DNA of 33,280 bases from Bacteroidota bacterium (GTDB taxonomy: Bacteria; Bacteroidota; Ignavibacteria; Ignavibacteriales; Melioribacteraceae): positions 1-33,280 of the forward strand of contig JAHJTX010000016.1 in NCBI GenBank assembly GCA_018829545.1, in the 5' to 3' direction. The notes beneath the pieces are model-generated. The model was not told where the DNA came from and did not search any database. It saw only the letters and a list, made by a program, of their open reading frames with translations. Every line of letters starts with the position of its first letter. Positions within the stretch are counted from its first letter, which is position 1. Shown one piece after another: positions 862 through 20,080 of this stretch. Position numbers and translations under genes: made by a program.

Positions 862-1684
862 CTCCCCCGCTAAAATAAATATCGGATTGAATATTGTATT
901 AAAGCGTGATGATGGTTTTCACAATCTCGAAACATTGTTTTATCCGCTTGAATTTCTACACGATACAATCACTTTCAAAAAGAGTGAAAAGTTTTCTTTT
1001 GTATGCAGCAAACCAGAATTGCAGGATAGTTCTAACTTAATCGTGAAAGCTGTAAAGCTACTTGAACAGAAAACTGAAAAGCGATTTAATGTTGAAATTA
1101 ATCTTCAAAAGAATATTCCTGTCGGCGGTGGACTCGGAGGCGGAAGTTCGAATGCAGCAGCAGTGCTGTTTGCGATAAATGAATTATTCCAATTGAACCT
1201 TACTTATGAGAAGTTGCTGGAATTATCGCTCCAATTAGGTTCTGATGTACCTTTCTTCATAAAAGCTAAACCCGCTATCGGAAAGTCACGCGGAGAAATA
1301 TTAAGTCATGTTGATTTTAACATTCCCTTCCCCATTTTAATAATCAACCCCCGTATTCATATTTCCACTAGTGAAGCATTTCAAAATATTTTGCCGAAAA
1401 TGAATCCCCTTAATTATGAGGACGTAAAATTCAATAATGTAAATGAGATAAAATCTTGGCAGGGGTTAATTAGAAATGATTTTGAGGAACATATTTTTTC
1501 TAAATACAAAGAGATTGGAAGTATAAAAAATATTCTTTTAGAGAATGGATCTCTCTTTTCTAAAATGACGGGCACCGGCTCAACTGTATTTGGTGTTTTT
1601 GAAAATCTTCAAGATGCTGAAAGAATTAAAAAATTGTTTCCGGAAAGTTACTTTAGATTTATAAACCACCATGCAGAGGGGTAA
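842..1684 (+). CDS. ispE: 4-diphosphocytidyl-2-C-methyl-D-erythritol kinase
   Basis: IspE is a cytosolic GHMP-family kinase that phosphorylates the 2-hydroxyl of CDP-methylerythritol in the non-mevalonate (MEP) isoprenoid pathway. The start at 842 gives a protein beginning MNFIQINSPAKINIGL, the usual IspE N-terminus; an upstream in-frame ATG at 809 would add 11 atypical residues. The glycine-rich ATP loop PVGGGLGGGSSNAAA lies at about residues 93-107 and the C-terminal GHMP motif TGTGSTVFG follows near residue 245. At 280 residues it has normal family length. It overlaps the preceding methyltransferase gene by 20 bases, which suggests translational coupling, and its 3' end overlaps the convergent histidine kinase gene by 26 bases. 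The identification is secure. Confidence 0.95.
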   Translation: MNFIQINSPAKINIGLNIVLKRDDGFHNLETLFYPLEFLHDTITFKKSEKFSFVCSKPELQDSSNLIVKAVKLLEQKTEKRFNVEINLQKNIPVGGGLGGGSSNAAAVLFAINELFQLNLTYEKLLELSLQLGSDVPFFIKAKPAIGKSRGEILSHVDFNIPFPILIINPRIHISTSEAFQNILPKMNPLNYEDVKFNNVNEIKSWQGLIRNDFEEHIFSKYKEIGSIKNILLENGSLFSKMTGTGSTVFGVFENLQDAERIKKLFPESYFRFINHHAEG

Positions 1685-3092
1685 GCACACGCTGTTTATT
1701 TTTATCTAACTCCCGCTGAACAAATGGAAGTTTAATCGTCATATTTGTACCAGGTCTTTCTTTAGCGCCGATACCGGAAGGGCTTTTTACATTTATTATT
1801 CCGTTATGATGCTGTATAATTTCCTTAACAAGTGAAAGCCCTAAACCGCTTCCTTCCGCTTCGTATCTTCTTGTGTTCGAAGCTCTAAAAAACTGTTTGT
1901 AAATGCTGCTAACTTCCTTTTCGGGAATACCTATTCCATCATCAACAACTGAAACGGAAAGATATTTTTGATCGATTGCTAGTTTAATGTCTATTCTTCC
2001 GCCGGTCTCGGTGTATTTAATTGAGTTGCCCAGCACGTTCGAAAGCGCAAGTTCAAGAAGCGAAGCCTCACCCTCTACAATTGTATTCTCAACATTCTGC
2101 TGCAGAAAATTTATTTTAATTCTTTTCTTATTTGCAGATTCAATATTGTCATCAATTAGCTTTCTAATTATTGTATTTATGTCCACGTCATTCGTAAATG
2201 ATTCGTTAAGAAGGCGCAATTTGGAAATCTTCAGAATGTTGTTGATTAAGTACAGACTATCGTCGAGACGCGTGCGGACTCTAAGCAGCTTTGTTTCAAC
2301 AGGCTCAGAAATAGGACCCAAATAATTTTGAAGTATTAAATCGACAAGAGATTCAGCCGCTGTAATAGGACTTTTAATCTCGTGAACAATTCCCATAATG
2401 TGCTTTTGTTTCGTTCTTTCCTGCTCATCTAATTTATCCAGCATTTCACGAAGCTGACCTTCTCTTTTTAATAGATTTCCTGCTATTCTATTCGCAAGAA
2501 TTACGGTCATCAGCATTAAAAAAGAGAAAACTAAAACAAAAACTATATTGTAATTAAGATTGTGCGCAATCGGGGATAAATATAATCCTGAAATGTAGTG
2601 ACTCTCTAAAGCACCGATATACTGATAGTAAATAAGTGAAGAATAGATGGAAATGATTAGTCCGCAAATAACATATACCAGATAATTGGGAAGAATCAAA
2701 CTTCCAATAACCATATGAAAAATAAAAAACACATTGAGCGGAGAAAATATTGTGCCCGTATAATAAACCAGTAACATCAGCGCCGTAAGATCGAGTAGCA
2801 TTTGAATGAGAGAAAGGTGCATGCAGTTAAATGAATCAGGATTGCAGCCTATTTTTAATCTAATTGCATGAATTAACGAATTATAAATTAGGATAGACAG
2901 CGCAATCATTAGGAGCGCATTTACTTGCTGATCGGTAAAATAGAAGTCCATTAAATATTGCCCAACAAAAACAAATCCAATTAAAACTAGAACCGCTGCG
3001 TATCTAAGTTTTATAAACCAAAGATTTCTTCGTCGGATAGTATTCCAAAATTCATCGTAATTATGTGCCCATTTGGGTACTAAAGAGATCAT
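1659..3092 (-). CDS. Membrane-bound sensor histidine kinase
   Basis: This 477-residue two-component kinase has an N-terminal membrane domain of about six hydrophobic segments (residues 27-200) without a large periplasmic sensor loop. A short coiled linker (205-230) and a HisKA dimerization domain follow, with the phosphoacceptor H237 in HEIKSP. The C-terminal HATPase domain shows the N box (LGNSIKYTE), G1 (DDGIGIP), F (FRAS) and G2 (GSGLGLSL) boxes, so it should be active. It may sense a membrane-associated or intramembrane signal; the signal is unknown. No receiver gene is adjacent. The only response regulator nearby is the single-domain one at 6982-7365, about 4 kb upstream in transcription direction and beyond the hydrogenase genes. 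The gene converges on ispE and overlaps its end. Confidence 0.9.
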   Translation of the reverse strand: MISLVPKWAHNYDEFWNTIRRRNLWFIKLRYAAVLVLIGFVFVGQYLMDFYFTDQQVNALLMIALSILIYNSLIHAIRLKIGCNPDSFNCMHLSLIQMLLDLTALMLLVYYTGTIFSPLNVFFIFHMVIGSLILPNYLVYVICGLIISIYSSLIYYQYIGALESHYISGLYLSPIAHNLNYNIVFVLVFSFLMLMTVILANRIAGNLLKREGQLREMLDKLDEQERTKQKHIMGIVHEIKSPITAAESLVDLILQNYLGPISEPVETKLLRVRTRLDDSLYLINNILKISKLRLLNESFTNDVDINTIIRKLIDDNIESANKKRIKINFLQQNVENTIVEGEASLLELALSNVLGNSIKYTETGGRIDIKLAIDQKYLSVSVVDDGIGIPEKEVSSIYKQFFRASNTRRYEAEGSGLGLSLVKEIIQHHNGIINVKSPSGIGAKERPGTNMTIKLPFVQRELDKNKQRVLTPLHGGL

Positions 3093-3389: not shown

Positions 3390-5309
3390 CTAAGCGATGT
3401 ATTTACCGCGTTTTGTATAATGAGTATGCAGTAATTCATGAGATAAATGTCCGCACGGACCGTCCTTCAAGAATTCTTCATATATTCTAAGAACGTGTTT
3501 GTTCTCATGAGATTTTCTTACATCCAGGGATTCATCTTCGGAGTAAATTGCTTTGGCGCGAGCTTTTCTGATTTCCGGACTCGTAGGAATAGGCTGCCCG
3601 CCGCCGCCGATACATCCGCCCGGACACGCCATAAATTCAATGAAATGACATTCGCTGAACTTGCCGCCGGCTTTTATATCTTCCATAATTTTTTTAGCGT
3701 TTGCAGTACCGTGTGCAACTGCGATTTTCAGCGTTGCTCCTTTTAGCCAATCCCAGTTTGGCACGAGATGTTTAATCAAATCCGGAACGGGACCAACTTT
3801 ATCGCCAATAGGAATTTCTGCATATTTAACTCCTTCAAATCCGCGGACTACTTCAACATTTGCGTTCTTGAAAACGTCCTCAACTTTAACGCCGAGAACA
3901 AATTCAACTACGGTTCTAATTGCGGCTTCCATAACCCCGCCCGTAGCGCCGAATATTAGTCCTGCTCCGGACGCATCACCAAAAGGACTATCAAAACTAT
4001 CTTTGGGAAGTTCCGGCAGATGAATTCCTGCTTCTTTAATCATCTTTGCCAATTCTCTCGTTGTTAATCCGTAATCAACATCTTTGTAGCCGGAGTCATT
4101 CATTTCCGGTCTGTTGCATTCATATTTTTTTGCTGAGCATGGCATAACCGCAACGGAAACTATATCCTTAGGATCAATACCTTTCTGCTTTGCATAATAT
4201 GTTTTGAACAATGTACCGAACATCTGCTGCGGTGATTTTGCGGAACTTAAATTGTCGATGTATTCCGGATAAAAGTGTTCAAGATATTTTACCCATCCAG
4301 GCGAGCAAGAAGTGAACTGAGGTAACGATACCGAAGGATCTTGATTGACAAGCGCCTTAAATAAGCGGATGATTAATTCTGTGCCTTCTTCAATAATTGT
4401 TAAATCGGCAGTGAAGTTGGTATCGAAGACGCCATCAAAACCAATGCGTTTAAGCGCAGTGTTTAGTTGACCTGTCATTGAATGACCTGCTTCTAACCCA
4501 AATTCTTCACCAATTGCAGCGCGCGGAGAAGGAGCAGTTTGAATAACCACATGCTTTTTAGGATCATCAATCGAATTCCAAATTGCATCCGACGGATCGT
4601 TTGCTCTTAGAGCGCCAGTGGGGCAGCGATTTATACATTGACCGCAGTTAATGCAAATAACACCCGCCAATGGTCTATCCATAAATGTGCTTATTGTAGT
4701 TTCATCGCCTTTATATGTAGCTTCCAAAACTCCTACTTCCTGTAAATCAATGCAAGTTCTAACGCATCTTTTACACAGCACACATTTGTCCATATCTCGC
4801 AAAACGGAGAATGATGATTTATCTATCACGTGTTTTGGTTCTTTGATATGACCAAAAGTGAATTCTTCAATTCCATATTCTTTTGAAAGAGATTGCAGCT
4901 CGCATTTGCTGTTACGAACGCATGAATAACATTCGCCGTAATGCTCACTTAACAACAAATCAAGAATATGCTTTCTTGCTTTGCGAACCATTGGAGTTGA
5001 AGTTTTAATTTTCATTCTTGCTGTGATTGGATAAGCGCAGGATGCTTGTAGTGTTCTCATTCCTTCAACTTCCACAACACACAAACGGCATACTCCTGCA
5101 ACGCATAAATCCGGATGATGGCAGAGAGTTGGAATGTGAATATTGTTTTGCTGACATGCTTCTAAAATTGTTGTGCCGAGAGGTACTGTAACCTTTTTTT
5201 CATTAATTTCAATTGCAATGGTTCCGCCGATTGTAGTTATATCCTCTGGCTTTTCCACAATGTGCGCTTTTTGACTAACCGGCGCTCTTAACGTTTTTTT
5301 ATTTTTCAT
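3390..5309 (-). CDS. hydA: [FeFe] hydrogenase catalytic subunit HydA
   Basis: This is the H2-producing or H2-oxidizing subunit of a trimeric NAD(H)-linked [FeFe] hydrogenase, presumed cytoplasmic. The start at 5309 is chosen because GGAGGAAAAC directly precedes it; a longer in-frame start at 5345 lies inside hydB. In order the 639-residue protein has a [2Fe-2S] domain (cysteines near 63-91), a His-ligated Fe-S segment (HYGECYSCVRNSKC, about 123-136), two [4Fe-4S] ferredoxin motifs (about 176-230), and the H-cluster domain with TSCSPGW (333-339), MPCSAKKYE (389-397) and EFMACPGGCIGGGGQP (559-574). The small-subunit-like tail ends near HELLHTHY. The first H-cluster motif has Ser where many family members have a second Cys. 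It overlaps hydB by 11 bases. HydEFG maturases are not in this window. Confidence 0.95.
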   Translation of the reverse strand: MKNKKTLRAPVSQKAHIVEKPEDITTIGGTIAIEINEKKVTVPLGTTILEACQQNNIHIPTLCHHPDLCVAGVCRLCVVEVEGMRTLQASCAYPITARMKIKTSTPMVRKARKHILDLLLSEHYGECYSCVRNSKCELQSLSKEYGIEEFTFGHIKEPKHVIDKSSFSVLRDMDKCVLCKRCVRTCIDLQEVGVLEATYKGDETTISTFMDRPLAGVICINCGQCINRCPTGALRANDPSDAIWNSIDDPKKHVVIQTAPSPRAAIGEEFGLEAGHSMTGQLNTALKRIGFDGVFDTNFTADLTIIEEGTELIIRLFKALVNQDPSVSLPQFTSCSPGWVKYLEHFYPEYIDNLSSAKSPQQMFGTLFKTYYAKQKGIDPKDIVSVAVMPCSAKKYECNRPEMNDSGYKDVDYGLTTRELAKMIKEAGIHLPELPKDSFDSPFGDASGAGLIFGATGGVMEAAIRTVVEFVLGVKVEDVFKNANVEVVRGFEGVKYAEIPIGDKVGPVPDLIKHLVPNWDWLKGATLKIAVAHGTANAKKIMEDIKAGGKFSECHFIEFMACPGGCIGGGGQPIPTSPEIRKARAKAIYSEDESLDVRKSHENKHVLRIYEEFLKDGPCGHLSHELLHTHYTKRGKYIA

Positions 5310-6507
5310 GTTTTCCTCCGTTTCTGCCGTTGAATATTTCTTCACTAAAATTCTCTAGTATTGATAAAAATGAATTTGGACTTGATTGACCCAAACCGCA
5401 TTTGGAAGAAACCTGCATGGTTTTACCCAGCTCTTTTAATTTATTTATGTAATTGAAAGTGAACGTTTTATCCTCAATCATTTCAACGCCTTCAAGAAGT
5501 TTTACGTTGCCTATTCTGCAAGGCGTACATTGCCCGCAGCTTTCTTCAACAAAAAATTCCATGAAATTTTTAAGAACCTTTACCATATCTCTCGATTCGT
5601 TAAAAATAATAATGCTTCCGCCTGTTGAAATATCTTCGTAGGCAAGAGTTCTTTCGAATTGAGATTTTGGAAAGCACACGCCCGAAGCTCCGCCAACTTG
5701 AACTGCTTTGGTCTTTTCTGCTTCGACTAATTTTAGTAGTTCAGATATTTTTGTTCCCCAAGGGAGTTCATAAACGCCCGGTTTTTTACAATCACCTGAA
5801 ACAGAGAATAGTTTTGATCCTGATGATTTATTTGTTCCGTATGTTTTATACCATTCCCCTCCTTTGGTAACTATTTGCGAAACGGCTGCGAGTGTCTCAA
5901 CATTATTTACCGTGGTAGGTTTGTTTTTGTATCCCGTGCTTACCGGAAATGGCGGACGGTTGCGCGCTTCGCCTCTCTGTCCCTCCAAAGATTCGATCAA
6001 TGCCGTTTCCTCGCCGCAAATATAAGCCCCGGAACCTAAACGAATTTGAATATCGAAATCGAATCCTTCTTTTCCACAAATACTTTTACCGAGTAATTGA
6101 TCTTGTTTCATTTCGGATAGATAATCATGCAATGACTTCAACATATATTCGTATTCACCGCGTAAGTACAAAAACCCAACTTTTGCTCCAATAGTTTTAC
6201 CGGCTACTACCATTCCTTCAAAAACAAGCTTAGGGTATTCTAACAGTAGTACTCTGTCTTTAAATGTACCCGGTTCTCCTTCATCTGCATTACAAATCAC
6301 ATATTTCTCATCACTCTTTGCGGCTGCGGTTAGCATCCATTTTGTTGATGTAGGAAAACCCGCGCCTCCTCTTCCTTTTAAACTGGAGATTTTTATTTCG
6401 CCTAAAATATCTTCGCGAGACATTTCGGCTGCTTTTTTTACAGCTTCGCCTCTCTCATATTCTGAAAAAATAACACTGCCGACTCTATTTGTTTTTTCAT
6501 TTTCCAT
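5299..6507 (-). CDS. hydB: Hydrogenase diaphorase subunit HydB (NuoF-like)
   Basis: This NuoF-family flavoprotein binds NAD(H) and FMN and passes electrons between NADH and HydA. The 402-residue protein contains GRGGAGFPT (residues 44-52), the FMN/NADH loop NADEGEPGTFKDR (73-85), CGEETALIESLEG (164-176) and the N3-type [4Fe-4S] motif SCGQCTPC with a distal cysteine (C324, C327, C330, C370). It is short for a hydrogenase HydB: the N-terminal thioredoxin-like [2Fe-2S] domain and the C-terminal 2x[4Fe-4S] ferredoxin domain found in the Thermotoga-type bifurcating HydB are both missing. This compact form resembles HydB proteins of simpler NADH-linked hydrogenases. Its stop lies inside the start of hydA, and hydC ends 2 bases upstream of its ATG. 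Confidence 0.93.
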   Translation of the reverse strand: MENEKTNRVGSVIFSEYERGEAVKKAAEMSREDILGEIKISSLKGRGGAGFPTSTKWMLTAAAKSDEKYVICNADEGEPGTFKDRVLLLEYPKLVFEGMVVAGKTIGAKVGFLYLRGEYEYMLKSLHDYLSEMKQDQLLGKSICGKEGFDFDIQIRLGSGAYICGEETALIESLEGQRGEARNRPPFPVSTGYKNKPTTVNNVETLAAVSQIVTKGGEWYKTYGTNKSSGSKLFSVSGDCKKPGVYELPWGTKISELLKLVEAEKTKAVQVGGASGVCFPKSQFERTLAYEDISTGGSIIIFNESRDMVKVLKNFMEFFVEESCGQCTPCRIGNVKLLEGVEMIEDKTFTFNYINKLKELGKTMQVSSKCGLGQSSPNSFLSILENFSEEIFNGRNGGKHEK

Positions 6508-6509
6508 AT

Positions 6510-6980
6510 CTACACCTCACCTAAAATTTCAACAGCTTTTTCGGGAGTTAAATACGAATACACTTTGTCATTTATCAACATAGCCGGACCTTGATCACAC
6601 ATACCTAAGCAGTTGGCATATTCAAGTGTAATTCTATTGTCTTTTGTTGTCCCACCGAACTTAATTCCTAATTCCCTTTCGATTGCTTCAGCCACAGCTT
6701 TTTTGCCTTGTAAATCACAAGTAATTGTCTGGCATAAACGTACAATATTCCTTCCCATTGGTTTTGAATATAGAAACGAATAAAAAGAAATAACGCCGTA
6801 AACTTCAACCGGATGAATATCCAGAACTCTCGCTATTTCCTGTTGCGCATAATCGGAAATATAACTGTGCTTTCTTTGAACATCTTGTAAAATAGGAAGT
6901 AATGATGCTCTATCATTCCCATAATGCGCAACTAACTCTTCAATTTCTTCTGTGAGGGAATTTTTTTCAACGACTAGCAT
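6510..6980 (-). CDS. hydC: Hydrogenase subunit HydC (NuoE-like [2Fe-2S] protein)
   Basis: HydC is a thioredoxin-like [2Fe-2S] subunit of the NuoE family that joins HydB in the NADH-oxidizing module of the hydrogenase. The 156-residue protein has a helical N-terminal region with ILQDVQRKHSYIS, typical of NuoE, then the thioredoxin-fold domain with four cluster cysteines in the pattern C-x4-C (CQTITC) and C-x3-C (CLGMC). Length and motifs match the family. It sits between the receiver gene (1 base gap) and hydB (2 base gap), so all four genes read as one tight operon. The identification as part of the hydrogenase rather than complex I rests on the adjacent hydA. Confidence 0.93.
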   Translation of the reverse strand: MLVVEKNSLTEEIEELVAHYGNDRASLLPILQDVQRKHSYISDYAQQEIARVLDIHPVEVYGVISFYSFLYSKPMGRNIVRLCQTITCDLQGKKAVAEAIERELGIKFGGTTKDNRITLEYANCLGMCDQGPAMLINDKVYSYLTPEKAVEILGEV

Positions 6981-6981
6981 A

Positions 6982-7365
6982 TTATTTCCCCTCTGTATTT
7001 TTTCTTAAAAGGTTTGCGACCTTCTCTGAAAGTTGATCTGGAGAAATAGGTTTTTCAACGAATTCATCAACCGGAACCATTTCACCGGCGCCGTATTCAA
7101 AGCCGATAGTTTTTGACACCGATGTGTACATTAAAATTGGAGTTTTAACTCCTTCTCTTCTTAATCGCTGCGCTAAGAAAAATCCGTCATCCGGCTCGTC
7201 CATCATAACATCCAAAATTATTAATTCCGGATTTCTGTCCTTTACTAAACTGAAACCGTCTTCCAGATTATTTGCAGAAATTACTTTGTGCCCTTTAGAG
7301 GACAACACTAAAGTGCTTGCTTCGATGATATCTGGATCATCGTCGATAATTGCAATTAATGACAT
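6982..7365 (-). CDS. Single-domain response regulator (CheY-like receiver)
   Basis: This 127-residue protein is a lone receiver domain with the acidic pocket D8-D10, phosphoacceptor D52 (ILDVMMDEPDDG), the switch Thr in YTSV and the conserved Lys in VEKP. It has no output domain, so it must act by protein contact, as CheY or Spo0F do. It opens the hydCBA operon, with its stop only 1 base before hydC, so its role is probably tied to hydrogenase expression or activity. A good ribosome site (AGGAGAAACAAA) precedes the ATG. Just upstream lies a 29-codon histidine kinase remnant that was probably its partner, so the receiver may now be orphaned or served by another kinase. Confidence 0.9.
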   Translation of the reverse strand: MSLIAIIDDDPDIIEASTLVLSSKGHKVISANNLEDGFSLVKDRNPELIILDVMMDEPDDGFFLAQRLRREGVKTPILMYTSVSKTIGFEYGAGEMVPVDEFVEKPISPDQLSEKVANLLRKNTEGK

Positions 7366-9580: not shown

Positions 9581-12500
9581 GTGAATCAAATTGAATTAAA
9601 CAAACTACAAGCCGATGCTTATGACCACCTTTGGAACGGTAGATATCGATTAGCATTAAAAACAGCTAAGGAACTTTATCAGGAAAAACCAGAAGATAGC
9701 GAAGCAGTTATTTGTCTTGCCTGGGCTCACCTCGAAAATGGCAATCCATTAAAAGCTATGGATTATGCAAATCTTGCAGTTGAATTGAGCAGCGAATCTA
9801 CAAGAACACATTTATGCCGTGGATATGTCTTGATGAGGCTTTCGATTTTTGAGGGAGCGATCAACGATCTTGAAAAATCTATTACCGAGCAGCAATCGCT
9901 GCTTGCCTGGTCATATTTGAATAAAGCAAGAGCGTATGCCGGTTTAAAAAATTTCAAAGATGCAAAAAGTTCTTACGATAGGTGCATTTCTATTAATGAG
10001 GGGAAAAACGAAGCGTGGAAGAATTTAGAAAAATATTATACAACTGTGATTGACATTTCTGGAAATGAAGATTCAATTGACAAGATGAATATTCCAGAAT
10101 ATTTGGATTTAGCAAAGGATGCCTTCAAAGATAAAGAAACATGGTTTGCCAATTATCTATCGAAATTAATTTTAAAAGAACCTGAATTTAAGAGTTATCA
10201 CGAACTTGCTCATCTTCTTGAATTGGAGGCAATGATTCATCTTTTCCAATTCCGTCCGGCAATGAAAAAAGCAGAAGAAATAAAAAGTGATTTTAAAAAG
10301 AATAAGAAATTCAATCAGCTTCTTACAACCCTTGAAAAAATGAAGGAAGAAGAAACTGAGGAGGAGGAAGCTCCTAAAAAAGATTCTGATAAGCTATTTA
10401 CCGTCGAGCGTCCAGCGTCAAAAGCAACTTCAAAAAAATCAGCACAGGATTCTAGTTCAATTCCAAAGAAATTTGATGTTGTGTATCATCCAAATGATCA
10501 TGCTGATGTTTTTTCTGCAAAGATGTTCGATTCTGACGAAGCCGCCGCCATGGGCGAAAGGACTTTCTATTCACAATTCGATCTTAATAGAATTAAGGAA
10601 GTTGGAGTAGAAATTATTTTCAGTAACCCGAATTTTAGAATTCAGAATAAAGTATTCACATGCGCTGCTGTTTGGTACTTAAACGATTTTGAAATTCATC
10701 GGCATACATTTTCGTTAAAAGTTGATCAAGACTGGGATTCCATTGTATTCACACAAGCATGCGGAAGCAAAGAAAGCATCAATTGGTCAATGGGTCAGTC
10801 ACACGTAGAAATTTTTATTGAAGGATTTAAAGTTGCCGATAAATGGTTTTTCGTAGATACTGAATCCATTAAGGATTCAGAGGATTTCGATGCTCCTGCA
10901 TTCGAACCCGAAGACAAAGGGTCCAAAGAATCTTCTTCAAATCAAAAATCTGACAAGAAAGAGACAAAGAAAGAAGAAAAAGTTGAAGAGAAACCCGTCC
11001 GCAGTTTAGAGGAACTATTGGAAGAACTAGATTCCTATGTGGGCTTGAATAGTGTAAAAAAGGCAATCAGAGATTTTATTGATTTTCTAGAATTTCAAAG
11101 GGAAAGAAAAAAACGCGGCTTAAAATCTACAGAGGGATTATCGATCAACGCTGTTTTTACCGGAAACCCCGGTACGGGAAAAACAACCATTGCGCGAATG
11201 TTGGGTGAGATATTTAAATCAATGGAGATTGTACCAAAAGGTCACGTTGTTGAAGTTGACAGAGCCGCTCTGGTTGGTCAATACGTCGGAGAAACTGCTC
11301 AGAAAACCGAGCAAATAATTGAAGACGCCATGGGTGGAATTTTGTTCATCGATGAAGCTTACACATTAGTAAAAAAAGGCGGACAGGATTTCGGTCAAGA
11401 AGCAATCGACGTTCTTCTAAAACGCATGGAAGATAAAAAGGGAGATTTCTGTGTAATCGCTGCAGGCTATCCCGAGGAGATGGAAACATTTCTAACTTCA
11501 AATCCAGGAATGAAATCAAGATTTAACCATACATTTAATTTTGAGGACTACTCCCCTGAGGAACTCATCGATATATTCCAACGCTATCTTAAAAAGGAAG
11601 AGTATTCTATTGATGAAGGCGCAGAGACAGCGCTAAATAAAGAATTTACTAATCTTTACCGCAAACGTGATCAAACTTTTGGTAACGCAAGACTTGTTAG
11701 GCAAACTTTTGAATCAGCCAAACTTCAATTGAGCCGGCGAGTTTCAAAACTTTCTGATGAAGAAAAAACCGATGAGGCAATGGCAACTATTATTGAAGAT
11801 GATATTAATGCAATTCTAAAAACTGAAGAGGCAAAAGACGTAAGACTTACGATTAACGATGAATCCTTACAAGAAGCTCTTGATGAATTAAATAAATTGA
11901 CCGGTCTTACTTCCGTTAAAAATGATATAAAGGATATGGTAAAACTTGTGAGATATTTCCTTGAACAAGGAGAAGACGTTAAAGATAAGTTTGGACAGCA
12001 CATCCTCTTCCTCGGCAGCCCAGGAACAGGAAAAACAACTGCCGCCCGAATATTGAGCAAAATTTTCTCTGCACTCACCATTTTACCCAAGGGGCATTTA
12101 ATTGAGACTGATAGACAGGGATTAGTTGCAAGTCATATTGGCGGGACTGCAGAAAAAACTACAAAGATGATTGATAAATCTTTTGGAGGCACTTTATTTA
12201 TTGATGAGGCATACACATTAGCTTCTAAGGGTGGCAGCGGTTCGGATTTTGGCAAAGAAGCCGTTGATACACTTCTGAAACGAATGGAAGACGATCGAGG
12301 AAAGTTCATTTGCATCGCAGCCGGTTATACTGAAGAAATGAAAGGATTCATCGAGACAAATCCCGGCATTCAATCAAGATTCACAAAATCATTTATGTTT
12401 GAGGATTATACTCCCGACGAATTAATTGAAATTACCAAAAGAATGCTTAAAAGCAAGAAGATTGAACTCGATGAAAAAGCACGCGAAGCGTTGATGAAGC

Positions 12501-13543
12501 ACTTCAATGAAATTTACCGTACGAGAGATAAAAATTTCGGCAATGCGCGAATTGTAAGGAGTATAATTGAGAAAGGAACTCAAAAAAGAATACTTCGTCT
12601 CGCGGATTTGACAAAAGATGAACGTAAGGAAGATGAAGTTCAAAAACTGATGCTTGAGGATTTATCCGATACATTGAAGAAAGCTGATGAAGGAAAAGCC
12701 TACGAAATTAAGGGCGACCCTGAAAAACTTGAGAAGCTGATGAAGGAATTAGGCTCTTTAACCGGATTGGATAGCGTAAAGCAAAGCGTGGAAAAATTAA
12801 TCAGTAGTTTAAAAGTAGCTCAGTTGAGAAAAGATCGCGGATTGAAGGTTATTGAAAAACCTCTTCACGCAATATTTGTCGGCAATCCCGGAACAGGGAA
12901 AACGACTGTTGCCCGATTGATGAGCAAAATTTACCGTGAACTTGGTCTACTTGAAAAAGGTCATCTTGTTGAAGTTGACCGAGCTGCGCTGGTTGCGGGA
13001 TATCAAGGACAGACAGCCACAAAAACAGACAAAGTAATCGAACAGGCTCTTGGTGGCACATTATTTATAGACGAAGCCTATACCCTTTCCAGAGGCGGTA
13101 ATGATTTTGGGCAGGAAGCAATTGATACTCTATTAAAAAGAATGGAGGATTACAGAGGAAAATTCATCGTTATTGTTGCCGGTTACACAAATGAAATGAA
13201 GCAATTCGTTGAATCTAATCCCGGACTTCAATCAAGATTTACCAACGAATTTGTATTTGAAGATTATGAACCAAGAATGCTTTTGAGCATCGCAAACGAA
13301 ATTTCGGAACAGAATGGGTATAGACTTGACGAAGGCGCCCTGCAATTATTGATGGAATTTTTCGATAAGCTCTACGCTAACCGCGATAATAATTTCGGAA
13401 ATGCAAGAACGGCTAGAAATATTTTATATAAAGCAATCAGTTATCAAGAGCAAAGGATTTCTTTGAATCCCAATGCGGAAGAGCTTGATTTAACTACTAT
13501 CACGTTTGAGGATGTTGGCAAATTGACTGAGGGCGATGCATAA
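9581..13543 (+). CDS. TPR protein with three tandem CbbX/EccA-like AAA+ domains
   Basis: This 1320-residue predicted cytoplasmic ATPase starts at GTG (AGAGGG ribosome site just upstream). The order is: TPR-like helical repeats (about 1-170); further helices to about 255; a charged linker; an unassigned beta-rich domain (about 300-430, aromatic-rich); a second Lys/Glu linker (430-470); then three AAA+ modules. Walker A motifs are GNPGTGKT (528-535), GSPGTGKT (812-819) and GNPGTGKT (1101-1108). Walker B motifs LFIDEA follow each, with Asp at about 591, 875 and 1164, and each module has SRF arginine-finger-like motifs. All three look catalytically intact. The modules resemble CbbX, SpoVK and the EccA ATPases of type VII secretion, usually present once per chain. 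No Rubisco or ESX genes are here, so the client is unknown. Remodelling of protein complexes is an inference. Confidence 0.9.
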   Translation: MNQIELNKLQADAYDHLWNGRYRLALKTAKELYQEKPEDSEAVICLAWAHLENGNPLKAMDYANLAVELSSESTRTHLCRGYVLMRLSIFEGAINDLEKSITEQQSLLAWSYLNKARAYAGLKNFKDAKSSYDRCISINEGKNEAWKNLEKYYTTVIDISGNEDSIDKMNIPEYLDLAKDAFKDKETWFANYLSKLILKEPEFKSYHELAHLLELEAMIHLFQFRPAMKKAEEIKSDFKKNKKFNQLLTTLEKMKEEETEEEEAPKKDSDKLFTVERPASKATSKKSAQDSSSIPKKFDVVYHPNDHADVFSAKMFDSDEAAAMGERTFYSQFDLNRIKEVGVEIIFSNPNFRIQNKVFTCAAVWYLNDFEIHRHTFSLKVDQDWDSIVFTQACGSKESINWSMGQSHVEIFIEGFKVADKWFFVDTESIKDSEDFDAPAFEPEDKGSKESSSNQKSDKKETKKEEKVEEKPVRSLEELLEELDSYVGLNSVKKAIRDFIDFLEFQRERKKRGLKSTEGLSINAVFTGNPGTGKTTIARMLGEIFKSMEIVPKGHVVEVDRAALVGQYVGETAQKTEQIIEDAMGGILFIDEAYTLVKKGGQDFGQEAIDVLLKRMEDKKGDFCVIAAGYPEEMETFLTSNPGMKSRFNHTFNFEDYSPEELIDIFQRYLKKEEYSIDEGAETALNKEFTNLYRKRDQTFGNARLVRQTFESAKLQLSRRVSKLSDEEKTDEAMATIIEDDINAILKTEEAKDVRLTINDESLQEALDELNKLTGLTSVKNDIKDMVKLVRYFLEQGEDVKDKFGQHILFLGSPGTGKTTAARILSKIFSALTILPKGHLIETDRQGLVASHIGGTAEKTTKMIDKSFGGTLFIDEAYTLASKGGSGSDFGKEAVDTLLKRMEDDRGKFICIAAGYTEEMKGFIETNPGIQSRFTKSFMFEDYTPDELIEITKRMLKSKKIELDEKAREALMKHFNEIYRTRDKNFGNARIVRSIIEKGTQKRILRLADLTKDERKEDEVQKLMLEDLSDTLKKADEGKAYEIKGDPEKLEKLMKELGSLTGLDSVKQSVEKLISSLKVAQLRKDRGLKVIEKPLHAIFVGNPGTGKTTVARLMSKIYRELGLLEKGHLVEVDRAALVAGYQGQTATKTDKVIEQALGGTLFIDEAYTLSRGGNDFGQEAIDTLLKRMEDYRGKFIVIVAGYTNEMKQFVESNPGLQSRFTNEFVFEDYEPRMLLSIANEISEQNGYRLDEGALQLLMEFFDKLYANRDNNFGNARTARNILYKAISYQEQRISLNPNAEELDLTTITFEDVGKLTEGDA

Positions 13544-15489: not shown

Positions 15490-16041
15490 CTAAATCATCT
15501 CCGATAATAATTCTTTTCTTGGTTGAGCAATAACAACTTTATTAACCAATAATCCTTTATCTGCAATCAATTTTGCTCCGGAATCAACTGCGCTTCTTAC
15601 CGCAGCGACTTCACCGGTTAAAGTGCAAAAAGCTTTGCCGCCAAGAGCCATTGCTAACCTAATTTCAATCAATCGTACATTTGCTGATTTAACTGCCGCA
15701 TCTGCTCCTTCAATTAAAGAGGCAACAGAAAAGGATTCAATGATTCCTAACGCTTCCAATTCACCGACTTGGGAGTGACCTGCTAACGCCGGGAAAATAT
15801 CCGGATGAACATTTGGAATCACGAATGTATCGATAATGGCAAAATCTAGAGTGTTCACAGCAGCATCAACTGAAGTTTGAACCGCTGCTACTTCCCCGCC
15901 GATTAAAACCATGTATTTGCCGGAACATATTGTTCTTGAGAGAACCAGCTCAACTTCCGAAGTTTTCAGCATTATGTCAGCAGCTTGCATTCCCGCAGCG
16001 ATGCTCGTTAATTCTATTAGTCCTAATGAGTTCATTTTCAT
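15490..16041 (-). CDS. pduT: PduT-like microcompartment shell protein (tandem BMC domains)
   Basis: This 183-residue protein consists of two BMC domains in tandem (about 5-88 and 97-175), the BMC-T trimer type. The first begins SLGLIELTSIAAGMQAADIML and has the cysteine C39 in TICSGK. In Salmonella PduT the equivalent Cys38 binds a [4Fe-4S] cluster at the trimer pore, so this protein should carry an Fe-S centre able to move electrons across the shell. Overall similarity to PduT, including the GGKAFCTLTGEV segment of the second domain, is clear. It follows pduS by 16 bases. No other shell gene, signature enzyme or encapsulated dehydrogenase lies in the window, so the compartment type cannot be assigned here. 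Confidence 0.93.
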   Translation of the reverse strand: MKMNSLGLIELTSIAAGMQAADIMLKTSEVELVLSRTICSGKYMVLIGGEVAAVQTSVDAAVNTLDFAIIDTFVIPNVHPDIFPALAGHSQVGELEALGIIESFSVASLIEGADAAVKSANVRLIEIRLAMALGGKAFCTLTGEVAAVRSAVDSGAKLIADKGLLVNKVVIAQPRKELLSEMI

Positions 16042-16057
16042 GATTTATCCGTTCTCT

Positions 16058-17371
16058 TTATCTTACAATTTTAATATGACTGCCTGTAATTTCTTCAACT
16101 GTGCCGTTAATCGAAGAATGAATATTTGCTCCTAATTCACTTTCATTTACCGATGCAATTAATTGTCCCTTCTTTACAAATTCACCCTTGGCAACTGCTG
16201 AATCTGCAGATTTGCCGGTGTGTTGTTTTAAAAGAATTGTGACTTCTTTAGGTTCGAAATCAATATTTTCAAAAGGAGTCGGGGCATTGTATTGCAACAC
16301 ATTTAATCTTTTCATCAATTGTTTTAGCGGAACTCTTCTTCCCTCTTTGATTGGATGAACTTTTACAGGTTTTGGCTGTTCGTATTTAATTCCGAGTTTA
16401 CGCATTTCAACCTTACCTTGATCACATGCTTCCCGCGGATATAAATCCTCAGGACAAGAATACAACGAGCACAAACCGCACGAACAGCATAAATCTGCAT
16501 ATTGATTCCATACCTCTGAACCGCTTGCAGAGAATGACAGAGTTCTCATTACTTTATGCGGCTGAACATCATATCCAAGCAGATAACGCGGGCAGAATTC
16601 CGTGCAATAGCTGCACTGATCGCAAGCTGATTTACCAATTCTGTTCATGTCTTGCACAGGTCTTTCCATTCTTTGAACCAAATAATGATCTTTTGGAAGA
16701 ACAATAATGCCCGCAGTAGTTTTAGTTACAACCTCGTTCAAATCGAAAGTTAATTTGCCCATTAAGATTCCGCTAACAAATACTGCAAAATCTTTTAATT
16801 TTGTTCCGCCGGCAAGTTCAATCAATTCACCGATGGAAATACCAACCGGCGCAAAAAATGTTTTTGGATTTTTTACTGCGCCCGTTACGCACACAAATTT
16901 CTCTGTTACCGGAATTCCTTTAACAGCATTGGAAATATTATAGAACGTTTCCACATTATTTACAACGCACCCAATCTGCAAAGGTATACCATGCGCTGGA
17001 ATCAGTCTTCCGGTAGCGGCATAAACTAATTCATATTCATCTCCGGATGGATAATAATCCCCGAGAAGACTAAGCTCAATACGTGAATCATGTATTTCAT
17101 TTTCAACTTTCTCAATGGCTTTTACATTTTTTTCTTTTATTCCAAAATATCCTTTCTTTGCAGAAGTTGAATCCAACATTAAATTCATTCCCTCAACAAT
17201 CTGAGGCGCAAAGTTTTTCATTAATTCAACGTCTTTGTGAATCAACGGCTCGCACTCAGCTCCGTTTGCGAGAACAAACTCAACCTTGGATTTTGCCTTA
17301 ACCTGTGTCGGGAAGCCCGCGCCGCCTGCTCCAACAACTCCAGCGTCGAATATTCTTTTTGATAATTCCAC
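16058..17371 (-). CDS. pduS: PduS-like RnfC-family flavin/Fe-S reductase
   Basis: This 437-residue protein matches PduS, the cobalamin reductase-type electron carrier of propanediol and related microcompartments. It has GAGGAGFPT (14-22) of the RnfC/NuoF flavin/NADH fold, two [4Fe-4S] motifs (C250-x2-C-x2-C-x3-C260P and C295/296 to C306P), and a C-terminal barrel-sandwich hybrid domain (about 390-437). It probably passes electrons from NADH or flavin to the PduT shell cluster or to a cobalamin enzyme. The start is GTG at 17371, overlapping the TAG stop of the phosphatase gene by one base (TAGTG), so translation is probably coupled. Membrane-bound RnfC is an alternative family member, but no other Rnf genes are present and pduT follows directly. 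Confidence 0.92.
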   Translation of the reverse strand: MELSKRIFDAGVVGAGGAGFPTQVKAKSKVEFVLANGAECEPLIHKDVELMKNFAPQIVEGMNLMLDSTSAKKGYFGIKEKNVKAIEKVENEIHDSRIELSLLGDYYPSGDEYELVYAATGRLIPAHGIPLQIGCVVNNVETFYNISNAVKGIPVTEKFVCVTGAVKNPKTFFAPVGISIGELIELAGGTKLKDFAVFVSGILMGKLTFDLNEVVTKTTAGIIVLPKDHYLVQRMERPVQDMNRIGKSACDQCSYCTEFCPRYLLGYDVQPHKVMRTLSFSASGSEVWNQYADLCCSCGLCSLYSCPEDLYPREACDQGKVEMRKLGIKYEQPKPVKVHPIKEGRRVPLKQLMKRLNVLQYNAPTPFENIDFEPKEVTILLKQHTGKSADSAVAKGEFVKKGQLIASVNESELGANIHSSINGTVEEITGSHIKIVR

Positions 17372-18606
17372 TACCTTTTCCGTTTGATTACGACTACTGT
17401 TTTATCGTCCTGATATTTGCTGTTCACAGTCGCAAATTTATTAACACTTTCAATTACAAGGTAACAAATTTCTTTTGGAGATAATTGAGAATTCTTTTTT
17501 ATTAATTCCATTAATTTCTGTTCACCGTAAAATTCGAATTTTTCATTTGCCGCTTCAACAATTCCATCAGTGAATATTACAAGCAAATCACCCGCAGAAA
17601 AATTGATGCTGTCTGTTTCATACTTGGAATTCGGCGCTGGTCCTAGCAAAGGACCAGTAGGCTCTAAGAATGAAATAGATTTTGCTGCAGAAGAATAAAA
17701 TATCGGCGGATTGTGACCTGCATTAGCGTAAAGAAACAACCCCTTTTTATCATTCGATATTTCACCGTAAAATAATGTTGTAAATCTGTCGTCACTAAAT
17801 ATTTTGTTTATCAAATTATTTAAGCGGAACATCATTGGCGAAATTTTCATTTGAAATGTAGACGCCATCCTGATCGCGCCGGAAATATACATCGCTTCTG
17901 CTGCCGCGCTTATTCCTTTTGAAGCAGCGTCTCCAACCGTAATTCCTAATCTTTCTTCATCGTTGCCTATTTGAAGATAATCGAAATAATCTCCGCCTAA
18001 AATTTCTGCGGGTAAAGTTACTCCAAAGATTTCATAATTCTGAAAAGTATACTCGTGCTCAGGTAGAATTGATTTCTGCAATTCCTTTGCTTTATCCAAA
18101 TCTGCGATTAAATATTTTCGGGAAGCAGAAATTCTTCTTTCACTAATTTTTGATGTGAGCAGCGTAGCAACAATATTTAATGTATACCGCAATTCATCGC
18201 CAACGGAATCGGAATTAAACGCAATCAAATATTCATAATAAGATTGATCATTATATTTTATTTTAGTGGCAACACCCGAAGCCGAATACTTAAATATTCC
18301 TTTCTTACGAAGTTCCTCATTTGTTTCGTTTGCGAGAATAGTTCTCTGGCGTGTAATTTCGTTAAATATTGGATAATCTTTTAGTTTGAGCACGAAGTCC
18401 CATTTTATTTTGGGAACGTTTCCTGTTTGAAAAATGAGCTTGTACCCTTTTACGTTAAGATCGAGTTTCCATAATCGCCCGCCGGTTACATTAACCTGTT
18501 CGTTTGCAACAATTTGTTGAAGTATTTCAACTAGAAGTTCTTTTTCGGAAGCAAAAGATTTTGACGCAACTGTTTCGAGAGTTCTGTAGAGTTTTTTCTG
18601 TATCAT
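17371..18606 (-). CDS. PP2C-type (SpoIIE/RsbU) serine phosphatase with N-terminal GAF-like region
   Basis: This 411-residue protein has a C-terminal SpoIIE/RsbU phosphatase domain (about 175-411). Metal-binding motifs are GGDYFD (204-209), GDAASKG (225-231), an ANAGHNPP segment near 293-300, FTDGIVEA near 350, and the final DDKTVVV near 401. The N-terminal 150 residues look like a GAF/sensor domain. Such enzymes usually dephosphorylate STAS anti-anti-sigma factors in partner-switching systems; no anti-sigma or STAS gene is adjacent. Its stop overlaps the pduS start, so it is the first gene of a phosphatase-pduS-pduT operon. The M64 peptidase gene ends 39 bases upstream and may belong to the same transcript. 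Confidence 0.9.
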   Translation of the reverse strand: MIQKKLYRTLETVASKSFASEKELLVEILQQIVANEQVNVTGGRLWKLDLNVKGYKLIFQTGNVPKIKWDFVLKLKDYPIFNEITRQRTILANETNEELRKKGIFKYSASGVATKIKYNDQSYYEYLIAFNSDSVGDELRYTLNIVATLLTSKISERRISASRKYLIADLDKAKELQKSILPEHEYTFQNYEIFGVTLPAEILGGDYFDYLQIGNDEERLGITVGDAASKGISAAAEAMYISGAIRMASTFQMKISPMMFRLNNLINKIFSDDRFTTLFYGEISNDKKGLFLYANAGHNPPIFYSSAAKSISFLEPTGPLLGPAPNSKYETDSINFSAGDLLVIFTDGIVEAANEKFEFYGEQKLMELIKKNSQLSPKEICYLVIESVNKFATVNSKYQDDKTVVVIKRKR

Positions 18607-18645: not shown

Positions 18646-19920
18646 TTATTTAGTGTAAAAATCCAGTACTTCTTTTAATGCTTCGATTGAGACTTGATTG
18701 AAAGAATCTACCTTTAAACTTCTCATCAAACTGTCGTACGTTGAGCGGTAAACGCCTTTTGTCACATATCCGGCGCCTTCAAAAACGCCGATATTATTTT
18801 TGTATTCTTCACTATCAGGAGTGGGAATCGGGGTACCTTCCTTAATGAGGTGTTTCCATTTTTTCTCAAAATTTACGAGCGTGGTAATATTTTTCTCCCA
18901 AGGTTCAACACTGCTGGAATAATAATCATGATAAGTTGGATCGTCGCCATACTCATCTGCTAATCCGGCAAGACCGTGCGCAAATTCGTGGATGAAGACC
19001 TTCTCAGCAGCCGGATGTTTTGATGAAGTCATTGAGTAATAATTGTAAATTGCGCCGCCGCCGTATTTTGGCGTGTTCACTAAAATCATAATCTGATCGT
19101 ACGGAGCGTTCGAAGCTGCATCACGAACTGATTTAACATCCTGCGTCATTAAATATCTTTCGCTGTCAAAAGTATAAAAAGATGAATTTAGTACAGTTGA
19201 CTTCCAGACTGAATCACCTGGGATATCTGTGCCACTCTCTTTCGAAGGAGCAAGCACGCCCCAAACATTTATTTTGTTACGATAATTTGAGAATGGTTCG
19301 TATTTAAAAATGTACTCTGAGAAAATCTTACAATCCTCTTTGAATAAATTTATTTCATCTTGGGAATATCCTTCCGGAAGAAATACAATATCAAGTTTCT
19401 CGGAACTGTCGCCAGATTTATGAACTTCTACGATTTCATGCTTCATTTTTTTTTCTTTGGAAATAAAGTAGTCTTTCGGATTGATTTTAGTCTCATAGAT
19501 TACGTCAAACGAACCTATTTTACTTCTTTTAAGAATTTCTAATTTCACATCTCTTTTGGGAAATGGGAAAACCACCGTTTCGTTGAAAACTCTTTTATGA
19601 TGTTTTGCTTCTTCCGTTGACTGCCATTCCTGGAATAGACTCCCAAATCCTCTGGAATAAATCAATTCGCCGGAAAGCTGATCATATATTTTGAAAGAGA
19701 AATTCCCAAGATTTAACGTATCAACCAAATTATTTTTTGATCCGCCCCAATATGGTTCTTCAATCAATTCATCAAAAATAATTTCTTCAGTAGTGTTCGT
19801 TCCTGTGTGAATATAATCGAACCTAAGCGTTTTTTCTTCAAAGTAATCTTGAAAGTTAATCTGCGAAAAAATGATATTCGTAAACGAGAACATTAAGATT
19901 AACATTGAAATCTTTCTCAT
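18646..19920 (-). CDS. Secreted M64-type (IgA peptidase family) metallopeptidase
   Basis: This is a 424-residue exported protein with a signal peptide (residues 1-19, hydrophobic MLILMFSFTNIIFS). It has an N-terminal beta-rich region (20-165) and a peptidase M64 domain (about 170-424). The zinc site is HEFAHGLAGLAD, with H311, E312, H315 and D322, which matches the HExxHxxGxxD form of the family. Clostridium ramosum IgA protease founded the family, but environmental members are unlikely to cut IgA; the substrate here is unknown. Preceding segments DIVFLPEGY and the GGGAIYNYYSMTSS stretch are typical of M64. The gene lies just upstream of the PP2C gene on the same strand, and the clpC terminator separates it from clpC. 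Confidence 0.88.
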   Translation of the reverse strand: MRKISMLILMFSFTNIIFSQINFQDYFEEKTLRFDYIHTGTNTTEEIIFDELIEEPYWGGSKNNLVDTLNLGNFSFKIYDQLSGELIYSRGFGSLFQEWQSTEEAKHHKRVFNETVVFPFPKRDVKLEILKRSKIGSFDVIYETKINPKDYFISKEKKMKHEIVEVHKSGDSSEKLDIVFLPEGYSQDEINLFKEDCKIFSEYIFKYEPFSNYRNKINVWGVLAPSKESGTDIPGDSVWKSTVLNSSFYTFDSERYLMTQDVKSVRDAASNAPYDQIMILVNTPKYGGGAIYNYYSMTSSKHPAAEKVFIHEFAHGLAGLADEYGDDPTYHDYYSSSVEPWEKNITTLVNFEKKWKHLIKEGTPIPTPDSEEYKNNIGVFEGAGYVTKGVYRSTYDSLMRSLKVDSFNQVSIEALKEVLDFYTK

Positions 19921-20018: not shown

Positions 20019-20053
20019 AAAAAAGAAAAGGCGAACATTTCTATTCACCTTTT
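20019..20053 (-). terminator. Intrinsic terminator of clpC
   Basis: On the minus strand a 10 bp stem (AAAAGGTGAA pairing with TTCGCCTTTT, one G-U) with an 8 nt loop is followed by CTTTTTT. It lies about 28 bases beyond the clpC stop and ahead of the M64 peptidase gene. Confidence 0.75.
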
Positions 20054-20080
20054 CCACAATCACATTTCCGAAGTTAAATA

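Follow-up and report, generated by a model that had tools for sequence, protein, structure and literature searches.

The window analysed here (the whole stretch of DNA, 33,280 nucleotides, from a member of the Melioribacteraceae) carries on its minus strand a conserved run of genes in the order M64-phosphatase-pduS-pduT. This run starts after a terminator-like hairpin (position 20024–20055, minus strand; detected by consensus scan only) located between clpC and the gene of an M64-family peptidase (18646–19920; Peptidase_M64 and M64_N domains). The latter precedes the phosphatase gene in most loci of the family, and does so also where pduST is missing. The next gene (17371–18606) encodes a SpoIIE/RsbU-type PP2C phosphatase (411 aa; Pfam SpoIIE, 150.5 bits), and is followed by pduS (16058–17371; 437 aa, GTG start) and pduT (15490–16041; 183 aa). 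A reading made previously from the sequence alone had reported this order of three genes, as well as an overlap of the phosphatase gene with the start of pduS, and both were recovered: the phosphatase stop codon and the pduS GTG codon have one base in common within the pentanucleotide TAGTG (17369–17373 in plus-strand coordinates).

Judged by its domains, PduS is a predicted NADH/FMN/2x[4Fe-4S] oxidoreductase. Pfam analysis identified Complex1_51K, SLBB, Fer4_17 and RnfC_N domains within one protein of approx. 440 aa, i.e. the combination (with a dicluster Fer4 region) by which PduS-like proteins are recognized, and the best relative in the PDB is RnfC (7zc6). The dicluster region (16424–16624, minus strand) comprises C250, C253, C256 and C260, then C295/296, C298, C301 and C306, plus C316; the cluster cysteines are invariant in 75 of 75 homologs, with the exception of C296 (74/75). 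The product of pduT is a PduT-like trimeric BMC-T shell protein, with tandem BMC domains (Pfam BMC x2, 152 bits) and a single pore cysteine, as is typical of PduT. Its best PDB match is 3nwg (E 1e-50), and 3pac and 3n79 (PduT) were also found. The pore cysteine, Cys39 (codon at 15925–15927, minus strand), is a predicted [4Fe-4S] ligand, which aligns with the cysteine of the solved PduT-like shell proteins 3nwg and 3pac, and is conserved in 72 of 72 homologs; its presence had been noted in the sequence-only reading. The designation C39 follows the numbering of the present protein; the counterpart residue of the Salmonella PduT is Cys38. Since the score with the NCBIfam model TIGR02526 (eut_PduT) is below the equivalog cut-off (116.7 vs 250.3 bits), we use the name “PduT-like” for this protein. 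The component domains of the two proteins support their earlier designation as a shell electron-conduit pair.

The phosphatase-pduS-pduT order is not confined to this genome, but forms a conserved and tightly spaced run throughout the family. It was found, with a spacing near zero, in all 32 sampled Melioribacteraceae genomes containing pduS of this type. PduS entries identical to those of family members are labelled Stygiobacter electus, Melioribacter sp. and Melioribacteraceae, which places the window in the Melioribacteraceae of the Ignavibacteriota. The phosphatase gene lies directly 5′ of pduS in 28 of the 30 best-matching pduS loci (the other two represent family f2), 36 of 38 linked copies examined show a gap of between −26 and +6 bp, and pduT comes after pduS in nearly all loci. 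Outside the family, linkage was detected in one f3 genome and in the f13 genomes G011, G060 and G021 (85 bp in the last case); the gap is 1.5 kb in G051, the two genes are on different contigs in G041, and they are separate in the compared genomes of f2, f5, f14, f19 and f20. In the pduS tree, linked copies occupy separate places among unlinked ones, which requires at least four changes. This pattern is as expected for an old linkage that was lost in places, although separate gains may also account for it.

Several further pduS and pduT loci were observed in the course of these comparisons. In G153 (C1:2894555–2895649), pduS contains an internal stop codon and has a shortened open frame, possibly a pseudogene or an assembly error. 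In family f24 (G154, L063:10517–12120), the genes directly after pduT are one for a sigma factor of the ECF type and a probable anti-sigma gene. The same PduS type is also encoded by Acidobacteriota MAGs (L193, L194, L197, L198 and L199), with PduT adjacent in four of the five; their PduS sequences branch beside those of f13, which makes a transfer between phyla probable. In the plasmid collection, only PduS proteins less than 60% identical were found.

The window encodes no further shell protein, so the isolation of pduST from other compartment genes, pointed out in the sequence-only reading, holds locally. It is not a peculiarity of this locus, as every gene of the compartment is scattered over the genome. 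A genome-wide search for shell genes revealed five more outside the window, namely a BMC-H pair on contig C311, a BMC-P pair on C51 and a third BMC-P gene on C211; no other BMC-H or BMC-P gene was found in the genome. Their surroundings are housekeeping genes: ruvX and ybbR (BMC-H pair), deoB and rpoD (BMC-P pair) and dprA (third BMC-P gene), all of which, deoB excepted, are named according to our own reading of the sequences. Of 30 loci compared, 25 retain the order deoB-BMC-P-BMC-P-rpoD (L010:10019–12699), which indicates that this placement of the BMC-P pair is old, and all 30 contain rpoD. Vertex shell genes thus adjoin a sigma-factor gene in an arrangement that is frozen across the class. 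The second BMC-H protein (L005:14783–15538, on C311) has a C-terminal extension of approx. 160 residues, which resembles SAP/Rho-N folds, has a conserved helical stretch at its end (ELRKMARSF..IKGREISKANRGTLLDFF) and is also present in G249.

The compartment appears to match the FRAG BMC, a known pattern of scattered genes described for Ignavibacteriae by Sutter et al. 2021 (PMC8217296), in which shell genes occur at up to six places and include a BMC-P triplet. As in that type, shell genes of this Ignavibacteriota genome lie at several separate places (C111, C311, C51 and C211) and three BMC-P genes are present; a BMC-P pair plus a single BMC-P gene was also found in most of the FRAG genomes sampled. 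The 2021 catalogue lists the FRAG BMC as enigmatic, without a substrate or signature enzyme. In the present analysis, by contrast, co-occurrence links the shell with an acetaldehyde dehydrogenase that carries a tail, with a DeoC that carries an extension, and with PduST.

Co-occurrence was determined in 294 genomes of the class (110 with and 184 without FRAG BMC-H), using cut-offs of ≥80% identity for BMC-H, ≥51% for the dehydrogenase and ≥52% for PduS; these identity cut-offs, like the E-value cut-offs, were fixed after inspection of the lists. PduS of this type is encoded by 73 of the 110 genomes with FRAG BMC-H and by none of the 184 without (Fisher p 1e-41, calculated for related genomes, which are not independent samples). 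Its absence from 37 of the 110 FRAG genomes indicates that the conduit is an accessory part. The dehydrogenase and BMC-H occur together in 107 genomes, the dehydrogenase alone in 1, BMC-H alone in 3 and neither in 183 (p 9e-76, for the same related genomes).

This dehydrogenase is the only EutE-like one in the genome, where no second acylating dehydrogenase was detected at E 1e-20, and it scores above the cut-off for the TIGR02518 acetaldehyde dehydrogenases (635.5 vs 620.1). Beyond the family domain and a variable linker it has a C-terminal tail with the helix-like motif G-x-G-I-S-E-x-E-I-x-K-I-I-x-E-F, which is also found in distant families. The tail is encapsulation peptide-like and may have a role in encapsulation; its amphipathicity (p 0.055) is suggestive only. 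When 12 genomes were searched with a profile of the tail, the dehydrogenase itself was the only strong match in 11 of them and a weak one in G149, and no further cargo was found at convincing E-values.

The second candidate cargo is a DeoC aldolase (TIGR00126, 275 vs 117 bits; 289 aa; L006:6484–7353), encoded 12 kb from the BMC-H pair, its nearest shell gene. A set of approx. 226-bit matches to PF01791, taken as DeoC, had made the present genome appear DeoC-less; this identification was wrong, as the true DeoC is the 289-aa protein that matches at approx. 58 bits. A conserved 72-residue N-terminal extension of DeoC is present in 98 genomes, 97 of which contain BMC-H, and the sole exception is a genome that is 78% complete. 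None of the eight compartment-less genomes of the order has the extension; two shell-less genomes of the order, G119 and G297, have kept DeoC with an extension that is different or shortened. The extension may function in encapsulation, although the amphipathicity of the N-terminal helix is not robust (p varies between 0.02 and 0.98 with the choice of stretch) and AlphaFold confidence for it is low. The absences of the shell, the dehydrogenase and the DeoC extension coincide in separate families; in f1, f2 and f3, where they are missing together, several independent losses seem to have occurred. A literature search found no text on this cargo assignment; the supplementary tables of the 2021 catalogue may contain part of the assignment of the dehydrogenase.

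The nearest clustered relative found of these scattered genes is a compact run of the SPU (sugar phosphate utilisation) type, RpiB-DeoC-BMC-P-dehydrogenase-BMC-H, which is found in another genome of the class, G085. The dehydrogenase, BMC-P and BMC-H proteins encoded there share 51, 56 and 80% identity, respectively, with their scattered counterparts. The present system shares with SPU BMCs a DeoC-type aldolase and a related acetaldehyde dehydrogenase, but differs from them in its dispersed genes, two BMC-H proteins (one with the C-terminal extension) and the presence of PduST. Because the enzymes and shell genes are not in one locus, we describe the compartment as one that may work like an SPU BMC and do not file it as such.

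Taken together, the sequence comparisons make it probable that the compartment is a dispersed SPU-like metabolosome for deoxyribose-phosphate and acetaldehyde, in which PduS-PduT serves to discharge the NADH of the lumen. In this model, pduS-pduT would be the electron-export module of a FRAG-type BMC with genes scattered over the genome. The tailed acetylating aldehyde dehydrogenase would convert acetaldehyde to acetyl-CoA with formation of NADH, PduS would oxidize the NADH via FMN and two [4Fe-4S] clusters, and the electrons would then move to the [4Fe-4S] cluster that Cys39 binds within the PduT trimer pore, and from there to a cytosolic acceptor. We adopted this predicted direction of flow because a compartment producing NADH by acetaldehyde oxidation must reoxidize it; export through PduS and PduT was put forward earlier for compartments other than this one (PMC6325248, PMC8667426). 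The PduS-PduT pair of PDU/GRM compartments (PMC6325248) resembles the present one in its adjacent genes, the same domains, the pore cysteine and two [4Fe-4S] motifs, whereas here the genes are not part of a compartment operon, they follow a phosphatase gene, and no B12-dependent or glycyl-radical enzyme was found alongside. Some points are counted against this model. PduL phosphotransacylase, a component expected in a metabolosome core, was found neither in the present genome nor in 26 of the 29 genomes searched, which makes luminal recycling of CoA difficult to account for. Furthermore, the midpoint potential of PduT (+99 mV, as cited in PMC8667426) limits the possible acceptors.

One alternative is that PduST serves other chemistry, involving for example aldehydes derived from fucose or rhamnose, or from ethanolamine, and that the co-occurrence of DeoC and the dehydrogenase has other causes. 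Some genomes of the class do have compact BMC loci with a pduST of their own (approx. 40–46% identical), one of these loci being eut-like, and the lack of a recognized FRAG signature enzyme in PMC8217296 would agree with such a role. However, the present genome, with its single acylating dehydrogenase, has one BMC-H pair and three BMC-P genes only, and both the DeoC extension and the dehydrogenase track the presence and absence of the FRAG shell, which leaves this explanation unlikely. A further possibility is that PduS is a soluble enzyme that reduces cobalamin, that PduT is a shell remnant, and that electrons are not exported at all. Reduction of cobalamin is indeed the activity of PduS in PDU compartments (reviewed in PMC6325248), but a B12 enzyme could not be found among the genes of this compartment, Cys39 is invariant in 72 homologs, and pduS is succeeded by pduT in nearly all loci; we consider this interpretation very improbable.

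The remaining alternative concerns the phosphatase, which, in line with the stress- or phosphorylation-linked control of electron flow suggested in the sequence-only reading, would be a dedicated regulator of flow through PduS-PduT, acting by a partner switch or by direct dephosphorylation. The protein consists of an N-terminal alpha/beta domain, a long helix and a PP2C domain. In fold the protein resembles the RsbU domain of Rv1364c, with a Z of 25.8 and an rmsd of 2.2 across 216 residues; a whole-model search, which barely probes the N-terminal domain, assigned no fold to the latter. The phosphatase combines the SpoIIE domain with the metal-binding Asp residues of RsbU/SpoIIE-type PP2C phosphatases: D206, D209, D226, D340, D347, D400 and D401 are invariant in 39 homologs, a point in favor of the control hypothesis. 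The PP2C fold and metal-binding residues are shared with Rv1364c, RsbU and RssB; unlike these, the present phosphatase gene adjoins pduS and has no RsbV/RsbW-like partner beside it. Dedicated control would be in keeping with the gene order and near-zero spacing described above for the Melioribacteraceae, f3 and part of f13, as well as with the phosphatase gene lying 4 kb 3′ of pduST in G154 (f24) and approx. 5 kb from the gene of the compartment's dehydrogenase in G249. The distribution of the phosphatase argues against it. A full-length homolog is encoded by 236 of the 294 genomes of the class, i.e. by 69 of the 73 with this pduS and by 167 of the 221 without, and seven of the eight compartment-less genomes of the order have retained the phosphatase. 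In G280, clpC, the M64 gene and the phosphatase gene are still in place, while pduST and the compartment are missing. Conversely, G140, G149, G218 and G254 contain pduS without a phosphatase homolog, the two genes are unlinked in the compared genomes of the five families named above, and no anti-sigma kinase or antagonist gene lies directly beside the phosphatase gene. Because of this distribution we rejected the phosphatase as a dedicated compartment part, and a role as dedicated regulator is quite unlikely. We take it as a class-wide general regulator of the RsbU/SpoIIE type, which in some lineages is probably transcribed together with pduST. It seems highly improbable that the phosphatase, translated with PduS, sets the phosphorylation of a factor gating electron export from the dispersed deoxyribose-phosphate compartment; if true, this would represent stress-linked control of organelle redox.

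A connection of PduST with the NAD-linked [FeFe] hydrogenase HydABC (3390–7365), also considered in the sequence-only reading, appears to be one of neighborhood and not of coupling. The hydABC genes lie 9 kb from pduST, behind genes on the opposite strand, and clear orthologs (71–81% identity) were found at the same syntenic place in two of 11 relatives with long flanks. A response-regulator receiver gene is situated directly upstream of hydABC, and a HATPase_c kinase gene downstream (1659–3092). The window also encodes a 1320-aa protein (9581–13543) that contains TPRs and a tandem of three AAA+ modules with AAA_lid_6 (CbbX/SpoVK-like), and which is syntenic with pduST in most of the family genomes examined.

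If the assignment of the cargo to the FRAG-type compartment holds, the proposed function of this organelle, present in over one third of the sampled genomes of the class, would be to utilize deoxyribose, such as that of DNA, by way of acetaldehyde, with PduS-PduT as its proposed NADH outlet. Its genes would then be an example of an organelle dispersed among housekeeping genes, yet retained and lost jointly.
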